From assembly GCA_017470005.1 (NCBI GenBank), contig JAFUFH010000055.1:1-42221 (forward strand): a DNA stretch of 42,221 bases, given 5' to 3'. Origin of the DNA: Bacilli bacterium. GTDB taxonomy: Bacteria; Bacillota_I; Bacilli_A; RFN20; CAG-288. Below, piece after piece: positions 2,947-26,500 of the stretch; the first letter of the stretch is position 1, and each line of letters begins with the position of its first letter. Position numbers and translations under genes: made by a program. Under the pieces are notes generated by a model, which made no database searches, had not been told where the DNA came from, and was given only the letters and a program-made list of their open reading frames with translations.

Positions 2947-3099
2947 ATGACCGCCATATCATTGTTCAACCGTCTCACTTTCAAAGAGAGATGGTTAAAC
3001 GGAACTATCACGGAGTCTATAACCTCAGGTAGAGTAGGTATGTTTTACAATGATCCTGCCATCTGTATTCTTTCTCTTGATTTATTAGCGATAGAATGA
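2947..3099 (+). CDS. possible 50-residue ORF between the LRR lipoproteins
   Basis: A short frame opens at an ATG preceded by AAAGGA with about nine bases of spacing and closes at TGA 3097-3099, ten bases before the next lipoprotein start. The product would be mixed, with a hydrophobic C-terminal third, and has no motif I recognise. It contains an imperfect inverted repeat at the DNA level (GTTCAACC near 2965 against GGTTAAAC near 2993), so the region could equally be a structured untranslated leader or a gene remnant. Low confidence. Confidence 0.3.
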   Translation: MTAISLFNRLTFKERWLNGTITESITSGRVGMFYNDPAICILSLDLLAIE

Positions 3100-3108
3100 G
3101 GTGTAAAA

Positions 3109-5430
3109 ATGAAATATAAGTTATTACTTCTTATTTCGTTGCTCGGAATGATGATTTCCTCTTGTGGAACATCAACCACCGAAATTTCATCTAAAGATAG
3201 CCCCGTTTTGCCAGAGACAACACTTTCAGAAACAACAGCCGAAGATACAACCAAAAGTGTTTTTTCTAAAGAAACCGATTCTGAAACCACATTAGAAACA
3301 AGCGTGAAAACTCCATCTGAAAATCCCCTCACACCTGATGATAACATAAAAGACAATCCGTATTTTTTGTTTCGTTATTCTCAAGATTTGAATGTTTTTT
3401 TGGTAACCAATTATTTTGGAGAAGATGAACGTCTCTCTCTTCCTAAAACTCATCGTTCGCTTCCCGTAATTCTTTCTGAAAGCTTTACGATAGCAGAAAA
3501 ATCAAGAGAACAAATAAAAGAGCTTTACCTTCCTGACATAATCGCACAAACCACCCAATCTTACTCGTGGATTGATACATTAGAAAACCTTGAAAACATA
3601 GAGATAGAAAGCAATCATTCTTCTCTTAGTATGTATCAACATTGCTTATATGATAAAGATCAAAAAACTCTCTTGGCCATTCCTAGATTATTTAAAGACT
3701 CCACTTTTAAGTTACCTTCCTCCGTAGAAAATATAAACTATAGTTTATTATCATCGTTAAAGCACGTGAAAGAAGTAGAGGTTCCTAGTGGAAATCCTTT
3801 CTTTTATTCAGAAGATGGTGTTTTGTTTAACAAGGATAAAAGCGAATTAATTTATTATCCAAGAATGAAAACAGATAGTGATTATTGTGTGCCTAATGGT
3901 GTGACAGAAATCGCTAGTCCAGGTTTTTCCGGGAATACATTCGTTACAAACATAGTTCTCCCAGAAACATTGCTTTCTTTTTCTGGCCGACTTCCAAATC
4001 CGTTTTCTTCTTGTTCTTCTCTCAATAAGATCAACATTCCAAAAAACATTAAGTCTCTCCCTGGTGTGTTTGACTCTTGTTTTTCTTTGGAAACTCTTGT
4101 TCTTCCTGAAAATTTGGAACAACTTACCCTCGTTCCAAGTTCAGGGTTCCAACATATTCATATTCCAAAAAACGTTTCTGTTTTAACTTTTGGTTCTGGG
4201 AGCTGTGATTATTTAGAAGACTTGACCATTGATGATGCTAACACCTCCTTTGCTATGCATAATGGAGCAATTTTTTCTAAAGATTTCTCTCGCCTTCTCT
4301 ATCTACCACAAAATAGACAAGGAGACTTTACAGTACCCAAACAAACAAAAAGCATTATGTTGCCATATGAAAACAACAGAAATTTATTTGAGAACTTTTT
4401 TGTTGAAGATGGAAATGAATCTTTCTTTTCCCTAGATGGTATTCTTTATAAGAAATCTAATAATGAAATCATTAATATTCCTGGAGCAAAGGAAGAGCTA
4501 CATCTTCATTCTTCTCTATCAAATCATAACTTGGCCCCTTTGGAAAATGTTAAAACTGTTTATTTAGACAAAAATATCAACACGTTTATTTCTGGCACTC
4601 TCTTCTTAATGCCCAATTTAGCCAAAATTATCGTAGCAGAAGAAAATGAATCACTTTTAGAAGAAAATGGCTATTTATTTAATCAAAATAAAGAAAATCT
4701 TATTGCTATAATAGGTGCCAAAACAGAAGTGACCATCCCAGAATACATTAAAGAAATCAATCTCCTTGCATTACCAAAGAATGTGGAAAAAGTTACTTTC
4801 CTAGGACCAGTACAAGAGGAATTTAAAACTATTGGCCTGAATAACTCTCCCAACCTAAAAGAAATCCATCTCGGGAAAAATTATTCTGGGAGATTTTTTA
4901 CCACCACCAATTGTCCAAATTTAAAAGAAATAACAGTTCATCCTGATAACCCAAATTTTTATGCTGAAGATGGGGCTATATATGATTTTCAACGAGAATC
5001 TTTACTGTGGTATAGTCCAGAAAAACATGGCGCTATATCTATCCTGCCCTCAGTTAAAACAATCGCTTCTTACGCAATCCAAGGATATAAGCAAAACGAG
5101 ATAATCTTCCCAGAAGGAATTACCAAAATCGACCCTAGAGCAATCTCTTATTGCCCGTTTCTTAGAAAAGTAGTCATTCCTGACAGTGTTACACAAATCG
5201 GAGCGGCCCAATTGTGGCAGTGTAACCCCACTTGGATATATTTTGGAAGAGGAATTAAATCCTTATCAAAAGGAACTCTTCAGCTCGCATCAACTTATTC
5301 TATAATTTGTTTTGCTAACTCTGAATCACAAATGGACTTAGCCAAGGATTGGTATTTATTTACCCCATTTTTAGAACCCGTTCCAGGATTCGGAAGAATC
5401 TTTTTCGATACACCATACGGCAGTCTATAA
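3109..5430 (+). CDS. BspA-like leucine-rich-repeat surface lipoprotein (paralog)
   Basis: 773 residues. The signal peptide ends in lipobox ISSC with the lipidated Cys at residue 19. A Ser/Thr/Glu-rich linker of about 65 residues follows, then the P-D-D-N junction and BspA-type leucine-rich repeats (segments such as VVIPDSVTQIG and IIFPEGITKI). The whole architecture mirrors the gene at 500-2860, so the two look like a tandem duplication that has diverged considerably. The start is set by a GAGGTG ribosome site directly upstream of ATG 3109. A symmetrical terminator hairpin follows the gene. The role is probably adhesion or surface interaction; the ligand is unknown. The copies differ most in the linker and in individual repeats, as expected for surface-exposed proteins. 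Confidence 0.85.
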   Translation: MKYKLLLLISLLGMMISSCGTSTTEISSKDSPVLPETTLSETTAEDTTKSVFSKETDSETTLETSVKTPSENPLTPDDNIKDNPYFLFRYSQDLNVFLVTNYFGEDERLSLPKTHRSLPVILSESFTIAEKSREQIKELYLPDIIAQTTQSYSWIDTLENLENIEIESNHSSLSMYQHCLYDKDQKTLLAIPRLFKDSTFKLPSSVENINYSLLSSLKHVKEVEVPSGNPFFYSEDGVLFNKDKSELIYYPRMKTDSDYCVPNGVTEIASPGFSGNTFVTNIVLPETLLSFSGRLPNPFSSCSSLNKINIPKNIKSLPGVFDSCFSLETLVLPENLEQLTLVPSSGFQHIHIPKNVSVLTFGSGSCDYLEDLTIDDANTSFAMHNGAIFSKDFSRLLYLPQNRQGDFTVPKQTKSIMLPYENNRNLFENFFVEDGNESFFSLDGILYKKSNNEIINIPGAKEELHLHSSLSNHNLAPLENVKTVYLDKNINTFISGTLFLMPNLAKIIVAEENESLLEENGYLFNQNKENLIAIIGAKTEVTIPEYIKEINLLALPKNVEKVTFLGPVQEEFKTIGLNNSPNLKEIHLGKNYSGRFFTTTNCPNLKEITVHPDNPNFYAEDGAIYDFQRESLLWYSPEKHGAISILPSVKTIASYAIQGYKQNEIIFPEGITKIDPRAISYCPFLRKVVIPDSVTQIGAAQLWQCNPTWIYFGRGIKSLSKGTLQLASTYSIICFANSESQMDLAKDWYLFTPFLEPVPGFGRIFFDTPYGSL

Positions 5431-11546: not shown

Positions 11547-12515
11547 TTATGGGTTACCGCGTAATTTTTTCGCTTTATCTCGCATATTTTGCATGATATG
11601 CACAACGCCAGATTTAGAGATAGGGATTCCTTGTTCTGTCACATTCTCCGCGATTTCACGATAATTCATATCATCGTTTTCTAAACGGCAACGAATGACC
11701 GCTTGTTCTTTCTCGCTGAGAGACTCTAAGGGAGTCACTTTCAATACCAATTGAATATCTTCGATATCTCTCTTTGCTGTCTCTGTTGTCTTCACATAGT
11801 TTGCGCTGTCACAGATTGCCCATCGATTATTGGTATTGATATCATCTTTTAAGATACGAGCATTTTCAAAAGCAAACATCGCAGAGGTTGCTTGAACATA
11901 AGAGAGGAAAACAGAGATTTGATCAGATTTCTTTAGATAAAGAACGTGTTGTTCTCTTCTCTTGATATATTTGAAGTTCATCGTCTTCTCATCTTTGAAT
12001 GTATCCAGCTTCTTTTTGATGGCCATGGCATCATTTTTATCCGAGAAGGCCATCTCTAAAAAGTAAGAGGTTTTGGAAGAAGAAGGATTATTGATAGAAC
12101 CGTTAGCTAAAAAGCAACCGATGAGAAGTCCTTTTAAATTGCGGCGATGTAAACCTTCCTTAGGAATCATACGAATGAATCCGTCTTCTAACACTTCTAA
12201 ATCTTGTAACACCTCTTCTAATTTAGGAGAGGTGATCTTTAAAACATAGACGAGACCTCTTCCAAATCTTGCAACATGTTGGTATTGAAGTTCTCCTTCA
12301 ATCCCATAACATTCTTTAAAAGCAGAGAAGAGAAGCTTAGCCACAGCGGCAATCTCTGTGTGAAGCTCTACGTAAGAGTTTTTACCAAAAGAAAAGATTC
12401 CGCCATTGCGGACAAAACCGGAAAGAATATATTTCTTTTCTTCTTCGCTATATTCGTTTCCCGCCAATTCTGTCTTTACTTCTCTCGCAAAGGGAATCTT
12501 CTTCTTTTCTTCCAT
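11547..12515 (-). CDS. whiA: DNA-binding protein WhiA
   Basis: 322 residues, the normal length. The N-terminal two-thirds match the degenerate LAGLIDADG homing-endonuclease-like fold (for example FVRNGGIFSFGKNSYVE and LLIGCFLANGSINNP). The C-terminal ~80 residues form a helix-turn-helix (SLSEKEQAVIRCR ... MNYREIAENV ... SKSGVVHIMQNM). In Gram-positive bacteria WhiA influences cell division and chromosome segregation. The usual upstream partners yvcJ (rapZ-like) and yvcK are absent; trxB sits directly upstream, with its stop two bases before this ATG. No strong ribosome site is visible, so translational coupling to trxB is likely. Confidence 0.93.
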   Translation of the reverse strand: MEEKKKIPFAREVKTELAGNEYSEEEKKYILSGFVRNGGIFSFGKNSYVELHTEIAAVAKLLFSAFKECYGIEGELQYQHVARFGRGLVYVLKITSPKLEEVLQDLEVLEDGFIRMIPKEGLHRRNLKGLLIGCFLANGSINNPSSSKTSYFLEMAFSDKNDAMAIKKKLDTFKDEKTMNFKYIKRREQHVLYLKKSDQISVFLSYVQATSAMFAFENARILKDDINTNNRWAICDSANYVKTTETAKRDIEDIQLVLKVTPLESLSEKEQAVIRCRLENDDMNYREIAENVTEQGIPISKSGVVHIMQNMRDKAKKLRGNP

Positions 12516-12517
12516 AA

Positions 12518-13438
12518 TTAACGGCTTTGATAATCCTTATGAATCATAGTCGCGGCCAACGAACCATCCGCAACCGCCATGGTAACTTGTCTTAAAGCAG
12601 TGTTTCTACAATCGCCGATAGCGTATAAATTTTTGACAGGAGTTTGCATCAGCTCATTGGTGACAAAGAAGCCTTTTCCATCTTTGACTCCTTCGATATC
12701 TACAAATTGAGTCTGAGGAGCATCTCCGATATAAACAAAGCAACCAGAGACGGGAAGAGTCACTCTCTCTTTGGTTTCATTGTTTTCAATGGTCAAAGAA
12801 GATAAGGAAGTTTCCCCATCGCATTCCACCGTATCATAAGGGGCATATAAAGTGACATTATCTAAAGCGTTAAATTTATCCAAGACACCCTTCATGACTT
12901 TCAGATTGGAATGATGAGCTACCACAGAAACATGAGAGCAGATAGAAGCAAGATAAATCGCTTCTTGGAAAGCGCTGTTTCCTCCACCGATGACTGCAAC
13001 ATCTTTTCCTTTATAGAAAGGACCATCACAAATAGCGCAACCAGAAAATCCTCTCTTGTGGAATTTCTCTTGCCCAGGAACATCGAAAGGTTTCTCCGCA
13101 ACGCCATTGGCTAAAATCACATATTTAAAATCTTTCTCTTCTTTTCCATAAAAGACTTTGAATGTGCCATCTTCGTTGAGAGCGACTTTCTTCACTTCTT
13201 TATAATTCACTTTGATTTGGAATGCGGATAATTGATCCTCTAAAGCCATAGCAAGTTCAGGTCCCTTGCCATTGACAAAACCGGGATAGTTTTCTATGCG
13301 ATCTGTTTTATTGGTCTTTCCACCAACATTCTCTCTTTCAAAAGCGATCGGGGTCATACCATATCTTTTTAAATAAATGCTTGCAGCAACGCCACCAGGA
13401 CCTAAGCCGATGACAGCAACTTCTTTTTCATCTACCAT
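12518..13438 (-). CDS. trxB: thioredoxin-disulfide reductase (NAD(P)/FAD enzyme)
   Basis: 306 residues. The FAD-binding GLGPGG motif lies near the N-terminus, followed by the redox-active CAICDG (C-x-x-C), a second dinucleotide motif GGGNSA and the C-terminal FAD motif YAIGDCR. This order (CxxC between the two nucleotide domains) is that of low-molecular-weight thioredoxin reductases, which reduce thioredoxin. The start is chosen at the ATG (13438) that lies eight bases after GGAGG; two upstream in-frame start codons overlap or nearly touch that site. It lies between lgt and whiA, all in one direction. Ferredoxin/flavodoxin-type relatives are an alternative, but the CxxC supports TrxB. Confidence 0.9.
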   Translation of the reverse strand: MVDEKEVAVIGLGPGGVAASIYLKRYGMTPIAFERENVGGKTNKTDRIENYPGFVNGKGPELAMALEDQLSAFQIKVNYKEVKKVALNEDGTFKVFYGKEEKDFKYVILANGVAEKPFDVPGQEKFHKRGFSGCAICDGPFYKGKDVAVIGGGNSAFQEAIYLASICSHVSVVAHHSNLKVMKGVLDKFNALDNVTLYAPYDTVECDGETSLSSLTIENNETKERVTLPVSGCFVYIGDAPQTQFVDIEGVKDGKGFFVTNELMQTPVKNLYAIGDCRNTALRQVTMAVADGSLAATMIHKDYQSR

Positions 13439-13499
13439 TGTCATTACCTCCAAGGAAAACTATCTTATAACAAAATCACATATCGTTGGGAAAATGTGC

Positions 13500-14555
13500 T
13501 CATTTCTTCATCTGCTCTTCCATCTCTCTCAATTTATCTAAATCAATAGAAGTATCTGTTTGTTTCTCTTTTTCTTTACCAAATAGATGAGAGCTCTCCT
13601 CATCGATAGGAGCAGAGGCCATCTCTACCACTGCCATGCCCTCTTCCTCAATAAAGTGAGATTTGAAGGCAGGAACTTTATCGAAAGCACCTTTTTTAGC
13701 AAGATAGTGTAAGACATGATTCAACGCGATGAGTAACACACCGATTCCAATAAAAACGATAGCCATAATCAAAGATTTGTAATCTTTTTGATTTCCAACT
13801 TCCGATGTACCCATGATGAAAGAAGGATTTCTTAAAGGTTCTAAAATCAAACGAACAATGCCATAAGCAATGAAGTAAGAGAACGCTTGATCACCATCAC
13901 AATATCTCTTTCCTAATACAGCTTTGATTCCATATCTCATAAGGAAATAGAACATCAAATTCACACCACCTTCTACCAAGAATAATGGTGCAGCTATAGC
14001 GCCCTCCGGCAATGTGACACCAGATAACATCGCCAAAGATCCGTTCTGCATATTGTTTACGATAAAAGGAGGAAGAAAATTCCAAGCCTCATAAGAAACT
14101 GCATGTCCGAAGACTTCTTGGTTAAAGAAGTTACCCCATCTTCCGATAGCTTGAGCAATCAATATGGTAGGGATTGCCCAATCCATAGGTTTTAATAGAG
14201 AGGTTCCCCTTCTTCTTAACAAAACAAAAGTACAGCCCGCAACAATACCCAAAATTGCGCCACCTTGAATTGCTAATCCTCCCTTCCACACTTCAAACAC
14301 ATGCCAGAAAGATTGATTAGCAAATTCGGCTTCCCAGGAAGCAATCACATACCAAATTCGAGCTCCGACAATTCCACTCGGGAAAGCCACATAAAAGATG
14401 GTATTAAAAAAGTTTCCATCATATCCTTCTTTTTTTGCTTGTTGGTTGGATAAGAATAGCGCTAAAAGTGCGCCAGAAATAATGATGAGGGCATAGAAAG
14501 TGATGGTGAAAGAACCAATCGGTATGCCGTTGATATATGCACCTGTTTTAATCAT
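13500..14555 (-). CDS. lgt: prolipoprotein diacylglyceryl transferase
   Basis: 351 residues, about seven membrane segments. The enzyme transfers diacylglycerol from phosphatidylglycerol to the lipobox Cys of prolipoproteins at the membrane, so it would serve the lipoproteins in this window. The signature GRWGNFFNQEVFG corresponds to the family's G-R-x-G-N-F-x-N-x-E-x-x-G. The ATG at 14555 (MIKTG) is chosen: GAGGA sits six bases upstream, and longer versions add only a non-hydrophobic leader. The start overlaps the hprK stop by eight bases (ATGATTAA). A hydrophilic C-terminal tail of about 60 residues, rich in E and K, is beyond the normal family end. It stops at TGA. Confidence 0.95.
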   Translation of the reverse strand: MIKTGAYINGIPIGSFTITFYALIIISGALLALFLSNQQAKKEGYDGNFFNTIFYVAFPSGIVGARIWYVIASWEAEFANQSFWHVFEVWKGGLAIQGGAILGIVAGCTFVLLRRRGTSLLKPMDWAIPTILIAQAIGRWGNFFNQEVFGHAVSYEAWNFLPPFIVNNMQNGSLAMLSGVTLPEGAIAAPLFLVEGGVNLMFYFLMRYGIKAVLGKRYCDGDQAFSYFIAYGIVRLILEPLRNPSFIMGTSEVGNQKDYKSLIMAIVFIGIGVLLIALNHVLHYLAKKGAFDKVPAFKSHFIEEEGMAVVEMASAPIDEESSHLFGKEKEKQTDTSIDLDKLREMEEQMKK

Positions 14556-15591
14556 GAGAATCCTCGTTGATACCATAAGCGCCTGTCTCCATCTTAGGAT
14601 AAGGTTCATCCGCTTCATTCAAAGGAGCTTCAGGAGAACGTTGTGTGACGCTTCCTTCTTTTAAATTGCCTTCTCTACGAGAGTTTTGGTGTAGCTCAAC
14701 CAATCTCTTTTGGAATTCATAACCAGTATCATAACCAGCATCTTTCAATTTGAAATTTGTGACAGCCGTCTCTACAATCTCAGCCATATCTCTAGCGGCA
14801 GAAACCGGTAATTTTACAAGGGGAACTGTCTCCCCTAATAATTCATAGCGATCGGTTTTCATACCGATTCTTTCCATGACTTCTTCTTTCTTAAACGGAA
14901 CCAAAGAGATGACCAATTTGATAGAAGAACGTTTCGAAAGTGCGTTGATACCAAACATACGAGAGACATTGATGATACCGATACCTCTCACTTCCATCAT
15001 ATCCCAAATAGATTCGGGACAAGTACCAATCAGTTTTCCTCTCACGTTTGCCACGTTAACTCTATCATCCGCAACAAGACGATGGCCATTGCGAATCAAT
15101 TCCAAAGAGATTTCGCTCTTACCGATACCCGATTCGCCTAATAAAACCACACCGATACCATAAATTTCCATCAAACAAGCATGAATCGCCGTTCTAGGAG
15201 CCAACTCTTCAGAAAGATATACATAAATATCTGACATGAGAGTAGAAGTATCTTGACTAGAAGAAAAGAGAGGTACGTTTGTATATTTTGCTGCTCTTAA
15301 AATGGGTTCAGGAACAGGATTATCTTGAGTGACAATGACTGCAGGGCATTCTTTGGCAAAGATTCGAAGGCAGTTATGATAAATGAATTCTGGGTCAGAA
15401 TCTCCAATCAATGCGACTTCTTTATTACCGATCAGCATGATTCTTTGTTTTTCATGGAAATGGAAAATCCCTAAAAGTTCCACACCAGGTCGATCCAGTT
15501 TGGCAACTTTGACCTCTCTGTGTAAAGCTTCAACATCTCCTGATATGACTTTTAAGCCAAAGTAATTGGCTAACATTAAACTTGTGAGCAT
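14548..15591 (-). CDS. hprK: HPr(Ser) kinase/phosphorylase
   Basis: 347 residues, against about 310 in the family. It phosphorylates and dephosphorylates Ser46 of HPr, linking glycolytic state to sugar uptake and carbon control. Walker A GESGIGKS is at residues 152-159, the conserved His137 in AIHACL, acidic LVADD near 172-176 and the family signature VRGIGIINV near 201-209. The ATG at 15591 follows AGAGGG at six bases; a longer upstream frame is not conserved. The last ~45 residues form a polar tail that is unusual for the family. It overlaps lgt by eight bases, consistent with the classic hprK-lgt pair. The promoter is at 15616. Confidence 0.95.
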   Translation of the reverse strand: MLTSLMLANYFGLKVISGDVEALHREVKVAKLDRPGVELLGIFHFHEKQRIMLIGNKEVALIGDSDPEFIYHNCLRIFAKECPAVIVTQDNPVPEPILRAAKYTNVPLFSSSQDTSTLMSDIYVYLSEELAPRTAIHACLMEIYGIGVVLLGESGIGKSEISLELIRNGHRLVADDRVNVANVRGKLIGTCPESIWDMMEVRGIGIINVSRMFGINALSKRSSIKLVISLVPFKKEEVMERIGMKTDRYELLGETVPLVKLPVSAARDMAEIVETAVTNFKLKDAGYDTGYEFQKRLVELHQNSRREGNLKEGSVTQRSPEAPLNEADEPYPKMETGAYGINEDSHD

Positions 15592-23609: not shown

Positions 23610-24179
23610 TTATTCGTCAAAACGAATACTCTTATCGTCCATAAAGGCAATCTTTGCTAAAGAGAAAACATCATATCCTTCGGTACGAAGTTCATTCCCA
23701 CCATTTTGATATTCTTTTTCAATAGAAACCGCGGCACCGACAACAACAGCTCCTGCTTGTCTAACAAGATCCATCAAAGCTTTGATTGCGTTTCCATAAG
23801 CTAAAAAATCATCAACAATTAAAACTCTATCCCCAGGATTAAAGTATTCTTTGTTCGTGATAATTTCTACGGTGTTATGATGAGTATAAGAAGCTACTTG
23901 AGCAGATATGATATTTCCAGATGTATTTGCTGTTTTTGCTTTCTTAGCAAAAACCATGTCTTTTTGATACTCTAAAGAAACCGCTGTGGCTAAAGGAAGG
24001 CCAGATGCTTCAATCGTTAAAATTTTATCTACAGGTTGAGTGAAATGATTTTTCACCTCTTTTGCCATAGAACGAAGTAATCCTACATCAATTCTTTGGT
24101 TGAGAAAACTACCCACTTTTAAAATGTCGCCCGGAAGAATTTCGCCACACTGCAATATCTTATCTTCAAGCTCTTTCAT
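23610..24179 (-). CDS. xpt: xanthine phosphoribosyltransferase
   Basis: 189 residues, family length. It converts xanthine and PRPP to XMP in purine salvage. N-terminal GDILKVGSFLNQRIDVGLL matches the Xpt pattern. The PRPP-binding loop is VLIVDDFLAYGNAIKAL (two Asp), and the preceding TIEASGLPLATAVS contributes phosphate contacts. The ATG has a perfect AAGGAGGAG site. It stands alone, without the permease gene (pbuX) that follows xpt in Bacillus. The leader carries a guanine-class purine riboswitch (24243-24311), so expression should fall when guanine or hypoxanthine is plentiful. Confidence 0.95.
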   Translation of the reverse strand: MKELEDKILQCGEILPGDILKVGSFLNQRIDVGLLRSMAKEVKNHFTQPVDKILTIEASGLPLATAVSLEYQKDMVFAKKAKTANTSGNIISAQVASYTHHNTVEIITNKEYFNPGDRVLIVDDFLAYGNAIKALMDLVRQAGAVVVGAAVSIEKEYQNGGNELRTEGYDVFSLAKIAFMDDKSIRFDE

Positions 24180-24242
24180 AGCTCCTCCTTGATAGAAAGC
24201 AATAAAGACACTTCTTACCAGTAAAAAAGATAAATTACATTT

Positions 24243-24311
24243 TCCAATAGTCGTGTTTTACGGTAACACGGTAGAGACACCTTCACCACTGGCTCAAAGG
24301 CATATATTGGA
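24243..24311 (-). promoter_or_regulatory. purine (guanine-class) riboswitch aptamer in the xpt leader
   Basis: On the minus strand the 69-base element has P1 TCCAATA/TATTGGA, a P2 stem CCTTTG/TGAAGG, J2/3 GTCTCTACC, P3 GTGTT/AACAC with loop ACCGTAA, and J3/1 GACTAT. The ligand-contact bases of purine riboswitches are all present (U22, U47, C50, U51, A52, C74 in xpt numbering). C at 74 indicates guanine rather than adenine. The GG ending loop 2 can pair with CC of loop 3. Loop 2 is nine rather than seven bases and lacks the usual GATATGG. No clear terminator follows before the ATG, so control may be translational. Confidence 0.85.
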
Positions 24312-24487
24312 TTCGTATATGAAAATGTTACTACAATTTTTCTTTTATCCGCTATGTGAGTGCTTACATCGGGTTAAAGATTAAAACTATATTTAAATCA
24401 GCTTATTTATCGAAAAAATGACTTAAATCTTATTTAAATAAAACAGGTAATTGGTCCCTTCCTCCTTCTTCGATTAAATTATTTTTG

Positions 24488-25597: not shown

Positions 25598-25673
25598 TGG
25601 TGGATCCTAAGGGACTCGAACCCTTGGCCCACTGATTAAGAGTCAGTTGCTCTACCAACTGAGCTAAGGATCC
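25598..25673 (-). tRNA. tRNA-Lys (anticodon CUU)
   Basis: 76 bases including an encoded CCA. Acceptor GGATCCT/AGGATCC, D-loop AGTTGGTA, anticodon stem ACTGA/TCAGT with loop CTCTTAA (anticodon CTT, codon AAG), T-arm AAGGG-TTCGAGT-CCCTT, discriminator A. It has its own promoter and terminator, so it is a single-gene unit. Confidence 0.97.
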
Positions 25674-25745: not shown

Positions 25746-25923
25746 TGTTACCTTTCATATTAAATGCGACAAAACCTTTACACTAAAACGATAAGACTAA
25801 GAAACACTTATATCCCAAGAGACGAAACTAGCTTATATCTGATGAAAACCTTGGAATATAGGTGTTGCTTATCCGTGTCGATGGAATCTATATTATTTGT
25901 CGCATTTATTATGAAAGATAACA
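25746..25923. repeat. 178-bp self-complementary element (long hairpin / MITE-like)
   Basis: Left arm 25746-25819 and right arm 25850-25923 are both 74 bases and align to each other in inverted orientation without a single gap, around a 30-base loop. The outer 28 positions match except two (core AAATGCGACAAA / TTTGTCGCATTT). The inner ~21 match except three (CCCAAG near 25814 against CTTGG at 25850). The middle third has diverged. No ORF is present. It fills most of the gap between tRNA-Lys and the Lrp gene. Either a miniature inverted-repeat element or a structured RNA. Confidence 0.85.
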
Positions 25924-26017: not shown

Positions 26018-26500
26018 ATGAAAACAAAGATCTTAAAATTATTAGAAGAGAACTCCCGTTTATCTACATCAGATATCGCTAAACAATTAGGTGTAGATGA
26101 AGATAGTGTCATTAAAGATATCGCTGAGATGGAAGCGGATAAAATCATCTGCGGATATCACACCATCATCAACTGGGATAAGATAGTCGACGAAAAAGTC
26201 AATGCCTTAATAGAAGTCAAAGCTGTTCCTCAAAGAGGAACTGGATTTGATTCTATCGCCAATAGAATCGCTAAATATGATGAAGTAGATTCTGTTTATC
26301 TTCTCTCTGGTGGATATGACTTTATGGTCATCATCCAAGGTAAATCCATGAAAGAAGTATCTTCTTTTGTTTTTGAGAAATTATCTGCGTTAGATAGTAT
26401 TCAATCTACAGCTACTCACTTTGTTTTAAAGAAATATAAGGATCACGGTATATCGTTAGAAGATAGAATTAAAGATAAAAGAGAGAACATTGTTCTATGA
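26018..26500 (+). CDS. Lrp/AsnC-family regulator, AlaR-like
   Basis: 160 residues. The N-terminal helix-turn-helix is LLEENSRLSTSDIAKQLG followed by the recognition helix region. The RAM/ligand domain (about residues 65-140) shows the typical VYLLSGGYDFMVIIQG, where Lrp proteins bind amino acids. The ATG has a GAGG site. Its last four bases overlap the aminotransferase start (ATGA). In B. subtilis the Lrp-type AlaR (YugG) is paired in the same way with alanine transaminase AlaT (YugH) and controls it; by analogy this protein should sense an amino acid, perhaps alanine, and regulate its partner. The 178-bp hairpin element lies 94 bases upstream. Confidence 0.85.
   Translation: MKTKILKLLEENSRLSTSDIAKQLGVDEDSVIKDIAEMEADKIICGYHTIINWDKIVDEKVNALIEVKAVPQRGTGFDSIANRIAKYDEVDSVYLLSGGYDFMVIIQGKSMKEVSSFVFEKLSALDSIQSTATHFVLKKYKDHGISLEDRIKDKRENIVL

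Follow-up and report, generated by a model that had tools for sequence, protein, structure and literature searches.

Between a tRNA-Lys gene and an Lrp/AsnC-type gene of a Bacilli bacterium (GTDB lineage RFN20; CAG-288) lies a long gap-free hairpin, and the question it raises is whether this DNA is the trace of a mobile element or the template of a functional RNA. An earlier note had left both readings standing: a MITE-like element with terminal repeats moved by a transposase in trans, for which further copies with target duplications would speak, or a large RNA hairpin, for which a single conserved copy with compensatory changes would speak. The window analysed here is the whole of contig JAFUFH010000055.1 (assembly GCA_017470005.1), 42,221 nucleotides long; it is contig C80 of the organism's own genome (G000, 92 contigs).

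An inverted-repeat scan of the window returned 25746-25923 as its best gapless 74-base repeat, with 56 of the 74 arm positions complementary around a 30-base loop. The best such repeats in 12 windows simulated with an order-1 Markov model reached only 37-43 complementary positions, and the window without the element yielded 40. Predicted RNA folding was likewise strong, at -54.0 kcal/mol (z -7.6); shuffled sequences averaged -24.1 (sd 3.95), and none of the 200 folded as stably. The equal arms, the loop and the location between the two genes are therefore as the earlier note had described them, and its statement that no protein is encoded also holds, since no open reading frame of at least 60 aa overlaps the 178 bases; the element is short and non-coding, as expected of a MITE. 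No Rfam family matched it at the gathering threshold, and the same search of the whole window reported tRNA and a purine riboswitch, nothing else. The riboswitch aptamer (24228-24329, minus strand) lies just upstream of a minus-strand reading frame (23610-24179) for a putative phosphoribosyltransferase.

Searching the genome, as the earlier note had proposed, uncovered further copies. A second full copy of 178 bases, 84% identical and aligned over query positions 1-178, is located at C46:6748-6925 between two other genes, in flanks unrelated to those of the C80 locus. On either side, homology between the two stops precisely with the terminal repeat, giving two copies at unrelated loci with exact boundaries; only these two full copies are present in the draft assembly. 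Partial relatives occur on C88, C31 and C89, and a repeat-only match on C40. By eye, the relatives on C31 and on contig C167 of a congener (G007) appear to be reduced units, roughly 90 and 66 bases long, with a degenerate inverted repeat at the end. The element was sought in 98 genomes, including its own, and matched in G000 and the congeners G002 and G007 alone.

Several of these loci have features of their own. The match on C89 (13518-13646 of the contig) is a unit of hairpin, spacer and repeat without insertion-sequence interior, and its stem carries, by eye, an A-to-T change paired with a T-to-A on the opposite side. On C31 (1-5500), the partial right-end copy sits between reading frames at 435-2570 and 3021-5249, a 711-aa reverse-transcriptase-like protein (YADD motif by eye) and a 742-aa ATPase-like protein; this pair might be a defence locus. 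Viral contigs contained no match to the 22-base repeat, and phage and plasmid records searched at distant sensitivity gave nothing matching. A single viral-contig match to the 18-base repeat core lies inside phage-like structural reading frames with no second end, and we judged it to be chance.

The terminal repeat belongs to a resident insertion sequence whose two ends differ. Its right end is seen on four contigs of G000 (C9, C43, C64 and C90), each of which stops about 140 bases into it. From the outside inwards it consists of the repeat TGTTACCTTTCATATTAAATGCGACAAA, a 25-base spacer, a 21-base stem, a 30-base loop and the second 21-base stem, followed by the interior, so that the hairpin exists already in the intact right end. 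The terminal repeat is identical in all four of these contig-end copies and in the G002 copies on C12, C48, C50, C99 and C122 (two copies). Contigs C11, C33, C36 and C41 of G000 stop in a left end, TATTAACTTTCATATTAAATG..., which has a short hairpin of its own; the terminal repeats of the left ends are of the TATTAAC type, unlike the right-end type. In G002, locus C122 (about 541-769) shows, after a right end, an 87-base tandem repeat of that end's outer part, and just inside the hairpin TGTTGCCTTTC, a terminal-repeat look-alike in direct orientation.

The transposase of this parent is of the IS30 type. On G002 contig C122, the right end comes after the stop codon of a reading frame for the C-terminal part of an IS30-family transposase. 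This partial fragment matched NF033563 with E 2.4e-13 and 50.4 bits, where the cut-off for whole proteins is 80; a relative of full length that is 45% identical (L131) scores 82.9 with the same model. The fragment is about 37-49% identical to full-length transposases from other genomes of the order. A left end precedes a transposase-like start on C40 of G000 and on C70 of G002. No complete gene is assembled in G000, where the assembly contains just the first 38 codons, on C40; the NF033563 profile had no match in that genome. From their position, these 38 residues are probably the N-terminus of the same transposase, though no family model matched them significantly, and Pfam at E 0.001 matched neither the N-terminal nor the C-terminal fragment. 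Other IS30 relatives of the order were scanned for hairpins behind the transposase gene: no stem reached score 12 at any of the seven plus-strand loci with the reading frame and downstream sequence (15 were given, of which seven were not scannable), and for a further IS30-relative locus, L136, the strand scanned may have been the wrong one.

Compared segment by segment with this right end, the element matches it from both sides (Table 1). Its genome thus also contains an autonomous element with these terminal inverted repeats, whose completeness there is suggested by paired flanks. Because both arms, the stem and the loop all match the right end, the element can be read as two right ends fused tail to tail around one common hairpin, and its loop has the orientation expected when a right end is followed inwards from the left repeat. 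The earlier note had described the middle of the arms as drifted. It was right that the outer 28 and inner 21 positions pair better (by eye, about 26/28 and 18/21 against 12/25 in the middle), but drift describes the middle poorly: the right-arm spacer is still largely parental, and the left-arm spacer is a different sequence that both full copies have in common.

Table 1. Features of the hairpin locus and agreement of each segment with the right end of the resident IS30-type insertion sequence; segments on the minus strand are read from the right end.
Feature	Position in window	Strand	Remark
tRNA-Lys	25598-25673	minus	flanks the hairpin element
Left terminal inverted repeat, 28 bases	25746-25773	plus	28/28 to the right-end terminal repeat
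Left-arm spacer, 25 bases	25774-25798	plus	13/25 to the parental spacer; common to the second copy on C46
Inner stem, left half	25799-25819	plus	19/21
Loop, 30 bases	25820-25849	plus	27/30 to the insertion-sequence loop (counted by eye)
Inner stem, right half	25850-25870	minus	20/21
Right-arm spacer	25871-25895	minus	23/25
Right terminal inverted repeat	25896-25923	minus	26/28
Lrp/AsnC-type gene	26018-26500	plus	flanks the hairpin element

At the left of the element, the first 60 columns of the alignment of the two full copies include 58 identical ones and one gap. A left spacer that is nearly identical in both copies yet unlike the parent must have differed before the copies separated. We compared it with the insertion-sequence interior and with 20 ends, left and right, using 300 shuffles. 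The best ends for the first copy were two right ends, G000:C90 (4/300 shuffles as good) and G002:C12 (13/300), the stretch compared including some terminal-repeat bases; for the second copy the same two ends were equalled by 27 and 80 of 300 shuffles. The left ends and most other ends were no better than shuffles, and the interior was equalled by 87 and 17 of 300. Among 59 genomes, the only matches to the 22-base core of the spacer are the two copies and one place with 3 mismatches in G012. Duplication of the right end alone does not explain the left spacer.

Flank pairing gave the parent a target duplication of exactly 14 bases in 5/5 pairs, rather than the short (2-base) duplication of IS30: C11/C9, C33/C64, C36/C43 and C41/C90 in G000, and C20/C48 in G002. 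In 351 comparisons of 27 end flanks, these five pairs had 0 mismatches and all remaining pairs at least 4. From the exact pairs we infer at least four complete copies of the parent in G000, their interiors being unassembled. No flank partner was found for the left ends on C40, C17 and C34 or for four right-end loci in G002. The C17 locus (12000-15000) carries its left end and an exact second copy of that end's 14-base flank, 1416 bases apart; between them lies a membrane-protein-like reading frame of several hundred residues, and no right end is recognisable.

Neither full copy of the element has such a duplication. At each copy, no fewer than 6 of 14 positions distinguish the two flanks, and the longest word common to their 40-base flanks is 5 bases, so the target duplications that the earlier note had looked to as support are absent and we call the element MITE-like rather than a proven MITE. 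Transposition in trans is for the same reason a conditional reading, although two copies with exact ends support movement as a unit. The duplications may possibly have been lost with age, but age alone is an uneasy excuse when the copies are still 84% alike; self-repeat targeting or later rearrangement could also lie behind their absence. End-to-end products do occur in this insertion-sequence family, as tandem right ends on G002 contig C122 and as a left-end/right-end abutment on G007 contig C167. A search for palindromic copies split at contig ends found no pairing of right-end with right-end flanks. The gene beside the C46 copy has one clear relative, in G002, at whose locus BLAST gave no match to the element; the intergenic DNA is too diverged to be aligned as an empty site.

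That the hairpin is a functional RNA, such as an Lrp leader or regulator or a small RNA with base pairing under selection, now seems very improbable. The strong predicted fold speaks for it, as do a start codon 94-97 bases downstream of both full copies and a two-sided compensatory change between them. This is, however, the only such change: of the pairs compared between C80 and C46, 47 are unchanged, 4 are one-side variants, 5 are broken, 4 are made, 12 are bad in both and 1 falls in a gap, which gives no clear sign of paired constraint, two sequences being little to go on. The same sequence is also present at the unrelated C46 locus and matches no Rfam family, and promoter-like sites were absent from the element and, across the region, no more than chance would give. 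BLAST of the element against 16 congener loci, 12 with a tRNA-Lys match, found nothing, and at 11 of these 12 tRNA-Lys loci the best 40-base inverted repeat had 21-24 matches against 29 at the element; the Lrp gene itself had no match in 12 other congeners. Neither a conserved position nor covariation in relatives was found. Because the congener tRNA-Lys loci examined lack the hairpin and changes between the copies disrupt pairs about as often as they preserve them, the RNA reading is disfavoured and the single conserved copy that it would call for is contradicted by the second one elsewhere. The second full copy, the shorter relatives and the resident IS30-family repeat all favour the MITE-like half of the original alternative.

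Two other origins keep the link to the insertion sequence. Internal deletion is the commonly assumed origin of MITEs, and a left end of a related insertion sequence might have been brought together with a right end, followed by a flip of the loop between the stem repeats. A left spacer unlike the right-end spacer would then have its source, yet shuffled sequence comes as close to the known left ends as that spacer does, all 28 bases of the left terminal repeat are of the right-end and not the TATTAAC type, and an additional inversion would be required to explain the orientation of the loop; we consider this origin unlikely. Local rearrangement of one old insertion-sequence copy, with the likeness to C46 arising by later recombination, would need no mobility at all and would sit well with the missing target duplications; the two copies also differ far more in the centre than at the ends, which suggests mosaicism. 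Against it, homology stops exactly at the terminal repeats in unrelated flanks, as for a mobilised unit, and it strikes us as distinctly unlikely.

Taken together, the results suggest that the element is most probably a non-autonomous, MITE-like derivative of the resident IS30-family insertion sequence, made of two inverted right ends with a common subterminal hairpin, moved in trans and now a relic. The unit may have been born when two right ends were joined via the symmetrical stem. Crossover or other recombination within the stem, between two inverted, slightly different copies whose spacers differ, would be the simplest route that fits the loop orientation; fold-back copying at the hairpin and subsequent spacer replacement would be an alternative. 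The parental transposase would then have acted in trans, recognising the two terminal repeats, which are nearly identical, and moving the unit. The element now appears old and is probably an inactive relic without function for the tRNA-Lys or Lrp gene, and the reading of these neighbours is unchanged. A more speculative idea, which we hold doubtful, is that the subterminal hairpin is itself a maker of MITEs, its stem yielding tail-to-tail palindromes with two functional right ends that the transposase can move, possibly into its own repeats without a 14-base duplication.

In a bacterial lineage about which little is known, the analysis traces a palindromic miniature element to its parent, an IS30-family element whose target duplication is constant at 14 bases. 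It also suggests a route to palindromic MITEs besides internal deletion, the stem-mediated joining of two identical ends.

Prokaryotic MITEs, the subject of a review, include QMITE2 of Coxiella burnetii, which is about 190 bp long and has repeats of 23-29 bp (PMC10969869). Like them, the element is short, AT-rich, intergenic and non-coding, has insertion-sequence terminal inverted repeats and a stable stem-loop over its full length, and occurs as size and sequence variants in one genome (PMC10969869). Unlike them, it lacks a target duplication, has only two full copies and is palindromic over its whole length, with two copies of one insertion-sequence end. The term IS30 does not occur in the text of that review (PMC10969869). 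The titles and abstract openings found in literature searches described no IS30-derived palindromic MITE, from which we do not claim its absence from print. IS1630 is reportedly the subject, by its title, of a 1999 paper by Calcutt. This IS30-type element of Mycoplasma fermentans has unusually long target duplications and resembles the parent in its transposase, in repeats of about 27 bases and in inverted repeats at its targets (PMC3317919), which the parent shows by eye at 2 or more of 5 sites (C36/C43 in G000, C20/C48 in G002). Its duplications vary (16, 23, 25 and 26 bases in strain M64), whereas the parent's are constant, and the parent's subterminal hairpin and miniature derivative have no mention for IS1630 in the source passages (PMC3317919). 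IS30 of Escherichia coli, of the same transposase family, duplicates 2 bases where the parent duplicates 14 and targets its own inverted repeats (PMC9333248); by analogy, such targeting would suit the tandem right ends and the end-to-end abutment described above. In kind the element is ordinary, and two copies of one end, together with the parent's 14-base duplication, make it somewhat unusual.
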